A stretch of 64,000 nucleotides of DNA from Sandaracinus amylolyticus (lineage in GTDB: Bacteria; Myxococcota_A; Polyangia; Polyangiales; Sandaracinaceae), in contig NZ_CP011125.1 of assembly GCF_000737325.1 (NCBI RefSeq), forward strand, positions 1,860,001 to 1,924,000, in the 5' to 3' direction. Below the pieces are notes generated by a model. The model saw only the letters and a list, made by a program, of their open reading frames with translations. It searched no databases and had not been told where the DNA came from. This document shows positions 7,648 through 55,151 of this stretch, one piece after another. How positions within the stretch are numbered: the first letter of the stretch is position 1; every line of letters begins with the position of its first letter. Made by a program: the position numbers and the translations under genes.

Positions 7648-8874
7648 ATGGCTGCACTCGACCGCTCTCTGGCCCTGGTGGCGTCGTCGATCGTGCTCGC
7701 GAGCTGCGTGTCGCGGCCCGCGCCCGAGCCGGCGGACACGATTCGCGTCGGCGCTCTGCTGCCGTTCACCGGCGATCTCGCGTCGGTGGGCGAGAACATC
7801 GAGCGTGGCCTCTTGATCGCGATCGAGACGGTGAACGAAGAGGCGGGCGGCGTCGGTGGGCGGCCGCTCACCTTGGTGTCGCGCGACACCCACTCCGACC
7901 CGGTGCGCGGCATGGCGGCCGCGCAGGCGCTGCTCGATGCCGGTGTCGAGGTGATCATCGGGCCGGAGGAGGGCGATCTCGCCGACGCGCTCGAGCCGCT
8001 CGTCGCCGCGCGCGGGATCCCGCTGCTCACCATCAGCGAGGCGGCGTCGTCGGACTCGGCCCACGAGGCGCTGCGCTTCCATCTCGGCCCCACCGCAGCG
8101 GCCGAGGGCCGCGCGCTCGCGCAGCGCATGTTCCGCGATCGACGGCAGCGCGCATCGATCATCTCGGCGCAGGGGACGTATGGCGACTCGTTCGCCGAGG
8201 GTGTTCGCGCCGAGCTGACCCGCCTCGGCGGGAGCATCATCTCCCACGAGCGATTCGACCCGGCGATCGAGGATCGCAGCGTGCTCGAGCGCGCGCTCGA
8301 CGATGAGCCCGACGCCCTCGTGCTGGTCGCCTATCCGCGCTCCGGCGCGCGCATCGTGATGGACGCGGCGGCGCTGGGCGCGACCGTGAGCTGGTACTTC
8401 GCGCCGACGCTCAACGACGACGCGTTCGTCGCGAACATCTCGCCGGGGCTGCTCGACGGCGCGGTCGGCGTGTCGCCCGAGGTGGGCGACGAAGCGGCCG
8501 CGTTCCGCGCCGCGTTCCGAGCGCGCTGGAGCGACGAGCGGCCGCTGCAGATCACGCACTTCTACTACGATGCGCTCATCCTCTGGGCGCTCGCCGCGGA
8601 GCGCGTCGAGCAGTCGGGTGGATCGATCTCCGACGTGCTGCGCGACACCTCGCGTCCCACCGGCCAGCTCTTCGCTTGGTACGAGGTCGAGGCGGCGTTC
8701 GCGGCAGTGCGCGAGGGCGCGGAGATCGACTACTGCGGCGCGTCGAGCAGCGTCGATCTGACCGACGAGCACGAGCTCGCGATGCCGTTCCTGGGCTTCT
8801 GGACGATCGAAGAGGATCGCATCCACCGCGAGCCCGCGGTCTTCCGCAGCCTCTGCCACTTCATCGGCGGCTGA
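7648..8874 (+). CDS. Branched-chain-amino-acid-type solute-binding lipoprotein
   Basis: 408 residues; signal II peptide with lipobox VLASC (Cys20). The mature protein has the periplasmic-binding type I fold of the Leu/Ile/Val-binding family: IRVGALLPFTGDLASVG, the helix of AIETVNEEAGGVGG, a nucleotide-like lobe with GVEVIIGPEEGDLADAL, then YGDSFAEGV and the typical hinge strands. It probably captures a small ligand in the periplasm or at the inner membrane. It lies 24 bp behind the TonB receptor, with GGAG upstream of its ATG. No permease or ATPase gene follows; the next gene is another, unrelated binding protein. Confidence 0.88.
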   Translation: MAALDRSLALVASSIVLASCVSRPAPEPADTIRVGALLPFTGDLASVGENIERGLLIAIETVNEEAGGVGGRPLTLVSRDTHSDPVRGMAAAQALLDAGVEVIIGPEEGDLADALEPLVAARGIPLLTISEAASSDSAHEALRFHLGPTAAAEGRALAQRMFRDRRQRASIISAQGTYGDSFAEGVRAELTRLGGSIISHERFDPAIEDRSVLERALDDEPDALVLVAYPRSGARIVMDAAALGATVSWYFAPTLNDDAFVANISPGLLDGAVGVSPEVGDEAAAFRAAFRARWSDERPLQITHFYYDALILWALAAERVEQSGGSISDVLRDTSRPTGQLFAWYEVEAAFAAVREGAEIDYCGASSSVDLTDEHELAMPFLGFWTIEEDRIHREPAVFRSLCHFIGG

Positions 8875-50259: not shown

Positions 50260-50787
50260 ATGCAGCCGGCAGCGATGGCGATCCCGAAGAGCGACGAGTC
50301 GTGGGAGAAGGGCAAGTACGGCCCGATCTGGCCCAAGACTCCGGCGAACTACGGATTCACGATCATCGCGCGCGTGAAGCCGGGGCGCGCCGACGCGATC
50401 CGCGGCTACGGGGCCAAGCTCGCGAAGGCGCTGGAGAGCGATCCGAGCCTGCTCGCGCCGCTGAAGCTGCACTACCTGCGCTGGGTGCTCTTCGACGACG
50501 ACACTCGGTTCATGTACCAGGGCATCTTCGACACCGACTTCGACAAGTACACCGAGGACGCGGTCGCGCTCTTCAAGAAGGCCGGCGTCGACACGGTGTT
50601 CGAGAACCTCGAGGACTTCCCCGAGGACTGGAAGACGAACCCCGACGCGTTCGTGCGATTCGTCCGCGCGCACCAGTGTCCGAGCTTCCTCGAGTACGGC
50701 GAGTATCCGTACGTCAGCACCGACGAGATCAAGAAGGCGCTCGAGCTGAAGAGCGCATTCTCGCGGATGCTCGAGCAGATGCAGTGA
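50260..50787 (+). CDS. Unrecognised protein, first gene of the DyP operon
   Basis: 175 residues, soluble, no signal peptide. Alternating patterns such as YGFTIIARVKPGRADAIRGY, LHYLRWVLFDDDTRFMYQGIFD and DAVALFKKAGVDTVFENLEDF suggest a ferredoxin-like alpha+beta fold as in dimeric alpha/beta-barrel proteins, the same superfamily as DyP peroxidases. Function unknown. The ATG follows AAGGAAG. Its stop overlaps the next GTG (GTGA), so its product is made with the following protein and probably binds it or the peroxidase. Confidence 0.75.
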   Translation: MQPAAMAIPKSDESWEKGKYGPIWPKTPANYGFTIIARVKPGRADAIRGYGAKLAKALESDPSLLAPLKLHYLRWVLFDDDTRFMYQGIFDTDFDKYTEDAVALFKKAGVDTVFENLEDFPEDWKTNPDAFVRFVRAHQCPSFLEYGEYPYVSTDEIKKALELKSAFSRMLEQMQ

Positions 50788-51815
50788 GCACGGCCGTGTC
50801 GGAGCCCGCGCGCACGTACAACCAGAGTCATTCGCCCCGGAAGTACGTCGCGGGCCGGCGGCGCGTGAGCGTCTACATCGCGTGGAGCTATCCCGGCGAG
50901 GCCAATCGCGACGTCACTCAGATGGACAATCGGTTCTCGACGATGACCGAAGTCCGTCGTGTGCTCTGGCCGCAGTACGAGACTCCGCGGTTCGCCGATC
51001 CCGGGATGTTCCAGCAGGGGATCGCAGGATCGCTCGAGCTCTTCTTCTGGGCGTGGGTGCGATTCCAGAACGTGATCGAGCAGACGACGGGACATCGAGT
51101 GCCGGTGTTCCAGCGCGTCGATCAGGCGGGATTCCGACTGCCGCTCGACGAGCGCGTGCTCGCCGACGTCGACACGCTGCTCGTGTTCGGGCTCGACCAC
51201 GTCGTGACGGGACAGGAGGCGTCCGCGGAGGAGATCGAGTCCGTGCGCGCGTTCCTCGCGCGAGAGGGCACGTGCCTCGTGATCGGTCCGCACCACGACG
51301 TGGGTGGGTCGCAGGATCTCGAGGAGCGAGCGATGGAGTACGCGCACCACGGCGACGCGCTGGTGCCGCGACAGCAGCGCTTCGGGCTCTACACGCGCTC
51401 TCTGATGCGCGGTCTCGGGATCCCGATCGAGAACCGGTTCGGGCTGCGCCCCGCCGTGCAGCGCGGGACCCAGCGGATCGCGCCGCTCGACGTCGCGCGG
51501 GATCTCGACGCTCGTGGTTGGCTCGCGGGCGTCACCAACTTCAACTTCCACATGCACCTTCCGCATTACGCGGTCACCGATCCTGCGAGCTCCGCGCGCG
51601 TGCTCGCGCGACAGCCGATCGACACGTCGAAGCCGCACCCGTTCACCGCAGCCGGGAACACCACGTTCAACGCGCTCGTGTGGCTCCCGCCGGGCGGAGA
51701 GCGCGCGGGTGACGTGCTCGTCGCGGACTCGACGATCTTCAGCACGTTGTTCGGCGGCGACGAGAGCTTGGAGCGCTTCTGGCGGAACCTCGCGACGGCG
51801 TCGGTGCGTGCGTGA
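50784..51815 (+). CDS. Unrecognised protein, second gene of the DyP operon
   Basis: 343 residues, no signal peptide or transmembrane helix. The centre, TLLVFGLDHVVTGQEASAEEIE then VRAFLAREGTCLVIGPHHDVGG, looks like a glutamine-amidotransferase-like or ThuA-like alpha/beta fold, without a nucleophilic Cys elbow visible. The N-terminus (VSVYIAWSYPGEANRDVTQMDNRF) and a His-rich stretch (NFNFHMHLPHYAV) are distinctive. Function not assigned. It is coupled on both sides: GTGA with the upstream gene and TGATG with the peroxidase. Confidence 0.75.
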   Translation: MSTAVSEPARTYNQSHSPRKYVAGRRRVSVYIAWSYPGEANRDVTQMDNRFSTMTEVRRVLWPQYETPRFADPGMFQQGIAGSLELFFWAWVRFQNVIEQTTGHRVPVFQRVDQAGFRLPLDERVLADVDTLLVFGLDHVVTGQEASAEEIESVRAFLAREGTCLVIGPHHDVGGSQDLEERAMEYAHHGDALVPRQQRFGLYTRSLMRGLGIPIENRFGLRPAVQRGTQRIAPLDVARDLDARGWLAGVTNFNFHMHLPHYAVTDPASSARVLARQPIDTSKPHPFTAAGNTTFNALVWLPPGGERAGDVLVADSTIFSTLFGGDESLERFWRNLATASVRA

Positions 51816-53143
51816 TGGGAGCGGACGTGTCGCTCGAGCTCGACGACATCCAGAGTGGCGCGCTGCGCCCTCGGCCCACGCCGTACGCCGCGACGTACAT
51901 CCTCCTGAAGATCCACGATCGCAGCGCCGGCAAGGAGCTGATGCGTCGCCTGAGCGTGGCAGTCGCATCGGCCGCGCACCCCGCGAGCCCGCTCGGAGAC
52001 ACCTGGCTCAACGCGCTCCTGACGTTCCACGGGCTCACGGCGCTGGGCGTGCCGCAGCAGTCGCTCGACAGCTTCGCGTGGGAGCTCCGACAGGGCATGG
52101 CGAGCCGCGCTTCCGCGCTGGGCGACACCGGCGAGAGCGCGCCGGAGCACTGGGAGAAACCGCTCGGGACGTCCGACGTGCACGTGGTGCTGGTCGCGCT
52201 CGCGCCCGATCGCGGACTGCTCGAGACCGCGCTCGGGCGTGCGCGCGAGTCGTTGCGCGGGCTCCCCGGCGTCGAGGCGATCTGGCAGCAGGACTGCCAC
52301 GCTCTGCCGACCGAGAGAGAGCCTTTCGGGTTCCGCGACGGCATCAGTCATCCCGCCATCGAGGGCAGTGGAGTCCCGGGCACGAATCCCGCGGAAGTGC
52401 CGCTGAAGGCCGGAGAGCTCGTGCTCGGATATCGCGACGAGCTCGGTGGATTCCCGCCGATGCCCCAGCCGGACGTGCTCGGTCGCAACGGCACGTACGT
52501 CGTGTTCCGCAAGCTGCACCAGAGAGTCGCCGCGTTCCGTCGATATCTGCGCGAGCGCGCGACGAGCCCCGCGGACGAGGAGCTGCTCGCCGCGAAGATG
52601 ATGGGACGCTGGCGCAGCGGCGCCCCGCTCGCGCGCTGTCCGCTCCACGACGATCCCGAGCTCGGCGCCGATCGAGCGCGCAACAACGCCTTCGACTACC
52701 GCGCTGACGATCCGACCGGATATCACACGCCGATCGGGAGCCACATCCGACGCTGCAATCCGCGCGACTCGGAGGTGGCGGGTGTCGCCCGACTCCATCG
52801 GATGATCCGTCGTGGCACCGCGTACGGGCCGCTGCTCCCCGAAGGCATGCTGGAGGACGACGGCGCAGATCGCGGGCTCGTCTTCGCGTTCGTCGGCGCG
52901 CATCTGGGACGGCAATTCGAGTTCGTGCAGTCGGAGTGGGTCAACGGAGGCGAGTTCATCGGCCTCGGAGACGCGCGTGATCCGATTGCGGGCTCGGCAG
53001 ACGGCCAGGGTCGGTTCTCGATCCCGCGCAGGCCGATTCCTCGACGGCTCGACGGACTGCCGCGCTTCGTCGTCACGCGAGGTGGGGAGTACTGCTTCAT
53101 GCCGAGCCTTCGCGCGTTGCGCTGGTTGTCGGAGCTGCCCTGA
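51815..53143 (+). CDS. DyP-type haem peroxidase
   Basis: 442 residues. Diagnostic GFRDGISHP (172-180) with the catalytic Asp175; proximal haem ligand His310 in GSHIRRCNPR; distal Arg region RLHRMIRRG (326-334); C-terminal FVGAHLGRQFEFVQSEW typical of the family. No Tat signal, so it is cytoplasmic or encapsulated; no encapsulin gene is seen here. Decolorising peroxidases oxidise dyes, haems or aromatic compounds with hydrogen peroxide. The ATG at 51815 overlaps the upstream stop by one base; a GTG one codon earlier is possible. Confidence 0.93.
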   Translation: MGADVSLELDDIQSGALRPRPTPYAATYILLKIHDRSAGKELMRRLSVAVASAAHPASPLGDTWLNALLTFHGLTALGVPQQSLDSFAWELRQGMASRASALGDTGESAPEHWEKPLGTSDVHVVLVALAPDRGLLETALGRARESLRGLPGVEAIWQQDCHALPTEREPFGFRDGISHPAIEGSGVPGTNPAEVPLKAGELVLGYRDELGGFPPMPQPDVLGRNGTYVVFRKLHQRVAAFRRYLRERATSPADEELLAAKMMGRWRSGAPLARCPLHDDPELGADRARNNAFDYRADDPTGYHTPIGSHIRRCNPRDSEVAGVARLHRMIRRGTAYGPLLPEGMLEDDGADRGLVFAFVGAHLGRQFEFVQSEWVNGGEFIGLGDARDPIAGSADGQGRFSIPRRPIPRRLDGLPRFVVTRGGEYCFMPSLRALRWLSELP

Positions 53144-53159
53144 GCGATTCGAGGCCGAG

Positions 53160-54578
53160 ATGCCGAGCGCCTTCGACGTCGTCGTGATCGGGGCCGGGCC
53201 CGCGGGCGCGGTCGCTGCGCTGCGTGCGGCGGATCTCGGAGCGCGCACGGCGCTCGTCGCGCGTGATCGGTTCGGCGGGATGGCCGCGAACGACGGGCCC
53301 GTCCCGGTGCGCACGCTCGCGCACGCGGCGCGGCTCGTCCGAGAGGCACGCCAGCTGGACCGATACGGCATCTGCGCGGGCGAGCCCGTCGTCGACTATC
53401 CGCGTCTCCTCGCGCGCGTGCGCGAGGTCGTCGATCACGTGGGCCGAGAGTCCGCGCTGCGCGGGCAGTGCGAGTCCGCGGGCGTCGTGATCCACGAGAA
53501 CGCCGGCGCCGCGCGCTTCGTCGCGCCGCACACGATCGAGACCGCGAACGGGCTCCGTCTCGACGCGGAGTCGATCGTGCTGTGCACGGGCGGCACGAAC
53601 CGACGTCTCTCGGTGCCGGGCGTCGAGCTGACGAGCACGCACAGCGACGCGTGGGCGCTGACGTCCGTGCCGCCTTCGATGTTGGTGATCGGGGCAGGCG
53701 CGACCGGCGTGCAGGTCGCGTCGATCTTCCACGCGTTCGGCACGCACGTGCAGCTGTTCCAGGCAGGCGCGCGCATCTTGCCGACGGAGGACGAAGACGT
53801 CGCGGCCGAGGTGACCGACGCGTTCCGCGCCGCGGGGATCACGGTGCGCACCGACTTCGGAGTCATCGAGTCGTTCGAGAAGACCGCGAGCGGCCTGCGG
53901 ATGATCGTGTCGAGAGACGGCGATCGATCGACCGCGGAGGCGGCGCTCGCCGTGGTCGCGATCGGATGGGTCGCCAACACCGCGGAGCTCGGCCTCGACG
54001 TCGCGGGCGTCGCCGCCGACGAGCGCGGCCGCGTGCGTGTCGACGACTACCTCCGCACCAGCGCGCCGCACGTCTTCGCGGCCGGCGACGTCACTGGTCA
54101 CCTGATGCTCGTGCCGCAGGCGCTCGAGGAGGGCTACGTCGCGGGCACGAACGCCGTGCGCGGCGCGGTCCTGCCGCGCACCGAGCACGTGAGCCCGATC
54201 GGCAGCTTCACGGATCCCGAGTACGCGCAGGTCGGCCTCGGCGAGGCACAGGCACGCGCGGAGCTCGACGCGCTCGTCACGGTGATCCGACTGGACGCGG
54301 GCACGCGCGCGATCATCGACGGACGGACCTCCGGGTTCTGCAAGCTGATCGTCGACCGCACCACGTCGCGCGTGGTGGGCTGCCACGTGGTCGGCGACCG
54401 CGCGGTCGACATCGTGCAGCTCGCGGCGATCGCGATCAGCGCAGGGATGACCGTCGACGAGCTCGCGCGAGTGCCGTTCTCGTTCCCGACGTACGCCGGA
54501 GTCCTGGGCCGCGCCGCGACGACGGCGGCACGCACGCTCCGTCGCGATCGCGCGTGGCGAGCGCCCGACGTCGAGTGA
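53160..54578 (+). CDS. Flavoprotein oxidoreductase lacking the redox disulfide
   Basis: 472 residues, disulfide-reductase fold: VVVIGAGPAGAVAALRAADLG (FAD), VIGAGATGVQVASIFHAFG (NAD), VFAAGDVTGHLMLVPQALEEGYVAG and a C-terminal dimerisation domain. Where lipoamide dehydrogenase has GGxCxxxxCxPSK, this has FGGMAANDGPVPVRT, with no Cys, and the C-terminal HPTxSE is FSFPTYAG. It therefore cannot be a classical dithiol reductase and probably reduces a small acceptor or shuttles electrons, perhaps to the peroxidase. The ATG at 53160 follows GAGGCCGAG. Last gene of the operon, closed by a strong terminator. Confidence 0.88.
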   Translation: MPSAFDVVVIGAGPAGAVAALRAADLGARTALVARDRFGGMAANDGPVPVRTLAHAARLVREARQLDRYGICAGEPVVDYPRLLARVREVVDHVGRESALRGQCESAGVVIHENAGAARFVAPHTIETANGLRLDAESIVLCTGGTNRRLSVPGVELTSTHSDAWALTSVPPSMLVIGAGATGVQVASIFHAFGTHVQLFQAGARILPTEDEDVAAEVTDAFRAAGITVRTDFGVIESFEKTASGLRMIVSRDGDRSTAEAALAVVAIGWVANTAELGLDVAGVAADERGRVRVDDYLRTSAPHVFAAGDVTGHLMLVPQALEEGYVAGTNAVRGAVLPRTEHVSPIGSFTDPEYAQVGLGEAQARAELDALVTVIRLDAGTRAIIDGRTSGFCKLIVDRTTSRVVGCHVVGDRAVDIVQLAAIAISAGMTVDELARVPFSFPTYAGVLGRAATTAARTLRRDRAWRAPDVE

Positions 54579-54589
54579 CGAACAGACGA

Positions 54590-54619
54590 CCGCCGAGCGA
54601 GCAGGCGCTCGCTCGGCGG
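54590..54619. terminator. Strong bidirectional terminator hairpin
   Basis: A perfect 13-bp stem (54590-54602 and 54607-54619) around the loop AGGC, 11 bp after the flavoprotein stop and 11 bp after the convergent hemerythrin stop. It is the strongest hairpin seen in the window. There is no T-tract, as is common in such G+C-rich genomes. Confidence 0.8.
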
Positions 54620-54629
54620 CCTCCGGCGA

Positions 54630-55151
54630 TCACGTGAACGAGTCGAGCTCCTTCGACTTCGACTCCAGATAACGCGCCTCGAGCGCGAAGGACTGCTCCT
54701 TCGTGAGCGCCTTCTTCGCGGCGGGGAAGATCTGCTGCTCCTCCTCGATCACGTGGTGCTGCACGAGCATCATCATCTCGCGGAAGACCTCGATCCACCG
54801 GTCGTCGGTGATCGGCATCGCGTCGAGCTGCTCGAGATAGCGCTCGATCCGATGATGCTCGTCGGCGGAGTCGTCCATCTTGCCGCCGATGTCGCCGATC
54901 GCGCGGAACGTCGAATAGACCTCCTTCTCCTCGGCCCGCGCGTGCGCCGCGAGCTCGGTGCGGATGCGCTCGAAGAGCTCCTTCCGCACGTTCGAGTCGT
55001 CCGTCGTGGCCGCCACGCGGCGGATCAGCGTCGAGATCTCGCCGTGCTCCGTCGAGAGCCGCTCGAAGATCCCCGCTCCGCCCGTGAGCGCCTGCTTCGC
55101 GCCCTTGAGCTTGCCCATCGCCTGGCCGGCGATCTCGGTCGGTCGCGCCAT
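54630..55151 (-). CDS. Hemerythrin-like domain protein
   Basis: 173 residues with the four-helix hemerythrin pattern: His in STEHGEIS, HARAEEKEVY, DEHHRIERYLEQL and VQHHVIEEEQQIFPAAKKAL, matching the H-HxxxE-H-HxxxxE/D spacing. It would bind a di-iron centre and sense or store oxygen, NO or peroxide-derived species. No membrane segment. The RBS AAAGGAG precedes the ATG. It is convergent with the DyP operon, sharing its terminator; the shared redox theme is suggestive only. Confidence 0.88.
   Translation of the reverse strand: MARPTEIAGQAMGKLKGAKQALTGGAGIFERLSTEHGEISTLIRRVAATTDDSNVRKELFERIRTELAAHARAEEKEVYSTFRAIGDIGGKMDDSADEHHRIERYLEQLDAMPITDDRWIEVFREMMMLVQHHVIEEEQQIFPAAKKALTKEQSFALEARYLESKSKELDSFT

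Follow-up and report, generated by a model that had tools for sequence, protein, structure and literature searches.

The operon lies in a window of 64,000 nucleotides of the Sandaracinus amylolyticus genome (contig NZ_CP011125.1, positions 1,860,001 to 1,924,000), a genome assembled as one contig of 10,327,335 bases. Four genes on the same strand are contained within positions 50260-54578 of the window (Table 1), and are referred to here as g1, g2, the DyP gene, and the flavoprotein gene. Their layout agrees with the sequence-only reading, including the two stop/start overlaps that tie the first three genes together, the GTG start of g2 being located inside the GTGA. The flavoprotein gene starts 16 nt past the end of the DyP gene, and the upstream PMT_2 gene (mannosyltransferase-like) ends 88 nt before g1. 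The operon is followed by a hairpin with a perfect 13-bp stem (MFE -33.4 kcal/mol, z -3.9). The strong structure claimed at this position is therefore present, but the scan of the window for terminators did not list it, and since no T-run follows the hairpin, it does not represent a canonical intrinsic terminator. The hairpin is common to the operon and to a convergent gene encoding a hemerythrin-domain protein (window 54630-55151).

Table 1. Features of the four-gene operon (positions in the window)
Feature	Position	Strand	Evidence
g1, 175-aa protein	50260..50787	+	ORF; no Pfam/NCBIfam match; AF2 model; fold matches; linkage
GTGA stop/start overlap, g1/g2	50784..50787	+	sequence
g2, 343-aa protein	50784..51815	+	ORF; no family match; AF2 model; fold; motifs
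TGATG stop/start overlap, g2/DyP	51813..51817	+	sequence
Class V DyP-type haem peroxidase (442 aa), DrDyP-like by sequence	51815..53143	+	TIGR01413; 8re3 match; active-site columns
Flavoprotein, FAD/NAD(P)-binding pyridine-nucleotide oxidoreductase fold, 472 aa	53160..54578	+	Pfam; 22-row motif alignment
Strong hairpin 3' of the operon, no T-tract	54590..54619	+	folding

By its sequence, the product of the third gene classifies as a class V, DrDyP-like DyP-type haem peroxidase, with a score of 116.7 bits against TIGR01413 (NCBIfam cut-off 100.5); the Pfam DyP domains match it weakly, below their cut-off. The Pfam N-terminal profile PF04261 picked up no DyP over the host genome although one is present, and it was thus left out of DyP counting. 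The nearest solved relatives are the structures of Deinococcus radiodurans DyP (8re3/8re2, E 1e-124), followed by other class V DyPs, and the alignment places the catalytic positions at D175 (the Asp of the GXXDG motif), H310 (proximal His), and R333 (distal Arg). The Asp and His are found in all aligned DyP rows, and the Arg in all but one. The usual settings of such enzymes are missing, as had been noticed before. No Tat signal is visible in the N-terminus MGADVSLELDDIQSG when read by eye, without a signal predictor; the protein stops at the core domain, aligned up to the end of 8re3, with no cargo-type C-terminal extension; and no encapsulin gene lies beside the operon (1.91 Mb). The two encapsulin genes of this genome are found at 3.84 and 8.77 Mb, approximately 1.9 and 6.9 Mb from the operon. 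The protein is therefore a relative of the encapsulin-associated and Tat-exported DyPs (EfeB, DtpA type) as a DyP-type haem peroxidase, but differs from them in these three respects and in having g1 and g2 as constant partners.

The two partners were called unrecognised in the sequence-only reading, and this description holds, as neither g1 nor g2 could be placed in a Pfam or NCBIfam family, alone or via relatives. PDB sequence searches returned chance matches only for both, with no sequence tie of g1 to the dimeric alpha/beta barrels. Structures were modelled with AF2 from alignments of the window and the genome loci only, so that the diversity behind the models is limited. The g1 model (pLDDT 90) predicts a ferredoxin-like alpha/beta barrel; its structural matches belong nearly all to the dimeric alpha/beta-barrel superfamily. 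The best of them reach a Foldseek probability of 1.00, although Z does not exceed 7.7, the value for the match of the core, residues 30-149, to the TcmF2 cyclase 1tuw. This predicted fold may be shared with ABM, NIPSNAP, polyketide cyclase, and MhuD/IsdG proteins, and perhaps with DyP itself. However, g1 has its own set of conserved residues: H71 and D91 are invariant, and R74, Y97, and D100 are almost invariant. No conserved Cys column occurs in the g1 alignments, so that g1 is not an iron-sulphur ferredoxin; "ferredoxin-like", as the protein had been described, is thus appropriate for the fold and not for the function.

The model of g2 (pLDDT 83, pTM 0.87) predicts a class I amidotransferase/ThuA-like fold, with Z scores of 14.9 for the IFT52 N-domain, 12.9 for the ThuA-like protein 1t0b, and 10-11 for many amidotransferases (range 9.9-14.9). 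Similarity to class I glutamine amidotransferases and ThuA-like proteins ends with this predicted fold, since g2 has no sequence match to them, lacks an invariant Cys, and carries His-rich motifs at the strand ends. In the two g2 alignments inspected (A1 and A3) no column is all Cys, the best reaching 64% and 79%, respectively, which makes glutaminase chemistry unlikely; the former label "amidotransferase-like" can accordingly be kept for the fold only. The invariant motifs are PHHDxG, HHGD, and FNxHxHLPH, and P169-H170-H171-D172, H188-H189-G-D191, and H256/H258 are invariant in both DyP-linked and Rhizobium-type relatives of g2. In the model, H170-H171 appears to follow the strand where amidotransferase/ThuA-like folds carry their nucleophile. 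Together with the invariant His motifs, this position makes a metal site our preferred guess for the histidine-rich site.

The flavoprotein carries Pyr_redox_2 and dimerisation domains (Pfam). The segment corresponding to the CxxxxC motif reads GGMAANDGPVPVRTL, and the region of the C-terminal catalytic dyad reads SFPTYAG; Cys residues in the former and the dyad in the latter are missing in 22/22 aligned rows, which include a divergent Acidobacterial set. The family has thus lost its redox disulfide. With both elements missing, a role as a disulfide reductase is unlikely, and NAD(P)H oxidase or dehydrogenase activity is plausible. The flavoprotein is an optional partner, present at 22 of 87 loci. 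Three Acidobacteria have their genes arranged as g1-flavoprotein-g2-outer membrane protein-DyP, and the position of the flavoprotein between g1 and g2 suggests that it is a real, if optional, member of the system.

The linkage of g1, g2, and DyP is secure. An alignment scan for g2 over 84,980 species genomes yielded 378 relatives, and in the best 80 of these, a set biased to close relatives, g1 and DyP were found beside g2 on the same strand without exception (80/80); g2 relatives at greater distance may differ in this respect. Most of these 80 show the order g1-g2-DyP, 12 of them with the flavoprotein after DyP; four show g1-DyP-g2, and in a few the flavoprotein or an outer-membrane gene lies in between. 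The median gap in g2-type loci is approximately 20 nt. Hosts of these loci include members of Myxococcota, Actinomycetota, Acidobacteriota, Pseudomonadota, Gemmatimonadota, Rokubacteria, Ignavibacteriota, and Melainabacteria, to which plasmids add Nostoc, so that the triad is inherited across at least eight bacterial phyla. The recurrence in the 80 closest g2 loci and in many phyla places the arrangement far beyond chance. A less biased check compared the places of g1 and DyP in 368 genomes. Among the 178 Actinomycetes genomes, g1 adjoined DyP wherever it occurred (15/15), and among the 190 Alphaproteobacteria genomes it did so at 6/7 places (21/22 together). In the exception, G338, g1 occupies 8576-8824 of a contig of 8910 bases and DyP lies close to the end of a different contig, probably as the result of an assembly break. 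Counting this split case, g1 accompanies 18 of the 19 DyPs matched at E<=1e-50 in the 368 genomes, and every credible g2 match in these genomes adjoins both g1 and DyP. An apparent g2 match in genome G192 was rejected as a folate-synthase-like gene read on the other frame, and a match in G518, 36 residues long, was left out of the count. The two partners thus occur with DyP and not mostly without it, which was the point on which the proposal of a dedicated system depended.

In the plasmid collection, triads were found in 8 of the 17 records with g2. The other nine, from Rhizobium and Caballeronia with approximately 38-45% identity, are not triads; they have no close g1 match, and those inspected have neither g1 nor DyP nearby. 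The distant Rhizobium relatives at L007:6992-7978 and L008:6992-7981 lie in a bufferin/DUF692-like operon of the order DUF2282-DUF692-(g2 relative)-DUF2063-DoxX-sigma-antisigma, with no DyP nearby. No g1 relative was found in viral contigs and no g2 relative in phage records.

The g1-DyP pair represents a constant core, to which one of three kinds of third partner is added. Of the aligned rows, 87 have g2 in this place, 10 a gene of the catalase family, and 8 a gene for a cytochrome P450; in one row g2 and a catalase-family gene occur together, and seven have none assigned. The identity of the P450 was confirmed by Pfam at seven loci (L202, L205, L207, L208, L210, L213, and L216). At one of these, DyP and cytochrome P450 are encoded in a single frame of 1007 aa (L210:211-3234) with a patatin-like gene adjacent, and on Sulfitobacter plasmids P450, g1-like, and DyP segments are combined in one protein of 1620 aa (L014:4559-9418). 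CYP5619 was considered as a P450-DyP fusion and rejected, as the enzyme in the paper concerned is a P450 from an oomycete with a peroxidase/dioxygenase as its fusion partner. A further locus with tandem g1 domains and DyP has beside it a 140-aa SnoaL-like protein and a gene (L201:7268-8884) whose product reads by eye like an FAD-linked, possibly H2O2-forming, oxidase.

Several catalase-type loci carry genes for oleate hydratase, 3-hydroxyacyl-CoA dehydrogenase, acyl-CoA thioesterase, patatin, and TetR proteins; fatty-acid genes were seen near catalase-type loci only, and none near g2-type loci. A carrier of the SBF family is encoded at 27 g2-type loci, and in many Actinomycetes its gene comes immediately behind that of DyP; Pfam confirmed the assignment for representatives. 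At g2-type loci of Gram-negative hosts, there are genes for Phenol_MetA_deg outer-membrane proteins. The exchangeable third partner, the fatty-acid genes, and the SBF and outer-membrane channel genes point to the metabolism of an organic substrate. Oxylipin systems combine a lipoxygenase with a catalase-related protein, or a dioxygenase with a P450, and resemble the loci described here in that an enzyme that contains haem or forms peroxide works with a partner of the catalase-like or P450 kind. However, the first enzyme here is a DyP accompanied by g1, and a lipid substrate is only a candidate.

Phylogenies suggest that the members of the triad do not share one history. In the DyP tree, the g2-linked DyPs require three label changes, forced by well-supported branches, and six of them (Nostoc, Minicystis, Gemmatimonadetes, Ignavibacteria, and genomes G485 and G585), with the order g1-DyP-g2, fall outside the set that joins the window clade and the catalase-linked DyPs. 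In contrast, all g2-linked g1 sequences form one clade with 100/100 support, in which the two g2-linked order groups are mixed; the deeper branching is uncertain owing to long branches among P450-linked rows. Eight loci of alternative order have a mean identity to the window of 67% for g1 and 66% for g2, but only 44% for DyP, compared with 74%, 70%, and 70%, respectively, for 65 comparable loci. The simplest reading of these trees and identities is that g1 and g2 would have stayed together while DyP was swapped for another member of the clade.

The closest characterized relative provides a comparison. The DyP of D. radiodurans (DR_A0145, 8re2/8re3) belongs to the same class V subfamily, is the best sequence match of the operon DyP, and is encoded 1 nt behind a g1 gene. 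It differs in being followed by a catalase-family gene in the place of g2 and in having a g1 only approximately 25% identical, and it has been studied only as an isolated protein. Produced without g1, it already contains haem, and was found to be low-spin and inactive at pH 7.5, leading its authors to suggest protein partners (PMC10820274). This inactivity of DrDyP alone, together with the g1 gene 1 nt upstream, is the chief outside support for the pathway proposed below, in which g1 would assist DyP.

These observations strongly suggest that DyP works within a dedicated multi-protein oxidation system, as had been proposed from the sequence. Its description as a peroxide system fits less well with the exchangeable third partner and with the fatty-acid, SBF carrier, and outer-membrane channel genes. 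We consider it an even chance that g1 and DyP form the core of a dedicated cytoplasmic pathway that oxidises an organic substrate, possibly a lipid-like one, and favour this over general peroxide defence. From the linkage of the genes and their lineages, the folds as predicted, the residues that are conserved, and the loss of the disulfide, we infer a complex in which g1 would most likely be a structural or regulatory partner of DyP, making it competent at the pH of the cell or presenting a bulky substrate. DyP would then carry out the peroxide-driven oxidation of an organic, probably hydrophobic, acid-like substrate, and g2 may transform the product at its His-rich, probably metal-binding, site on the amidotransferase-like fold, a cytochrome P450 or catalase-family protein taking its place in the sister systems. 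The disulfide-less flavoprotein, where present, could supply peroxide or electrons from NAD(P)H. A bolder version, which we regard as unlikely, is that g1 and DyP make up an obligate two-subunit enzyme, with g1 completing or gating the haem pocket, that would constitute a new peroxide-driven oxygenase for lipid-like substrates, g2 being a new metal-dependent, product-converting enzyme that replaces the P450.

Several observations could also be accommodated by a general defence against peroxide or oxidative stress, in which DyP with g1 and g2 would remove H2O2 or organic hydroperoxides and the flavoprotein would act as the reductase. Catalase-family genes adjoin DyP, a hemerythrin-domain gene adjoins the operon in the window, and DR_A0145 and DR_A0146 rise under UVC/vacuum stress in D. 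radiodurans (PMC5731708), a response that also fits a stress role. However, the distribution is patchy and often plasmid-borne, the partners include a P450, a carrier, an outer-membrane channel, and fatty-acid genes, and the closest solved DyP is a poor peroxidase at neutral pH (PMC10820274), which makes this explanation rather unlikely. The constancy of g1 whatever the third enzyme, and the haem-binding MhuD and IsdG-type barrels among its fold matches, would also be expected if g1 were a maturation or haem-handling chaperone of this DyP clade outside catalysis, with g2 as a separate enzyme of the same pathway. As stoichiometric use is suggested by the g1 domains that occur in tandem and by the g1-like segments built into catalytic polypeptides, and as the haem of DrDyP is acquired without g1 (PMC10820274), such a role is quite unlikely. 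Finally, short overlaps are common among bacterial genomes, and the genes might be neighbours by chance or for reasons of expression only, but the linkage in 80/80 (the best 80 of 378) and 21/22 cases across many phyla, the varied gene orders, and the exchange of DyP with g1-g2 kept contradict this explanation and leave it extremely improbable.

To our knowledge, most bacterial DyPs have no established natural role, and they are usually assayed on dyes and as DyP alone. The loci described here define a large DyP clade in which g1 is the constant and dedicated partner and the third enzyme is modular. The partnership could explain the inactivity of the isolated enzyme at neutral pH and names the proteins to add back, which are the first concrete partner candidates for DrDyP, a relative that seems to lack activity as a purified single protein. 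DyP and both folds were already known; the conserved g1-DyP-(g2/catalase-family/P450) system is not described in the searchable literature, where no paper on g1 or g2 was found, most subscription papers lying outside the search. In this way, two families without a Pfam or NCBIfam entry gain their first functional context.

Two observations concern single genomes. Archangium has, far from the g2-type triad of its genome, another system (L216:4360-8353), which consists of DyP, P450, and two g1-like domains. In addition, a record titled Comamonas sp. KCTC 72670 (a 9 Mb genome) carries a triad that is most Myxococcota-like, with 72-77% identity to the window, and its label may be wrong.
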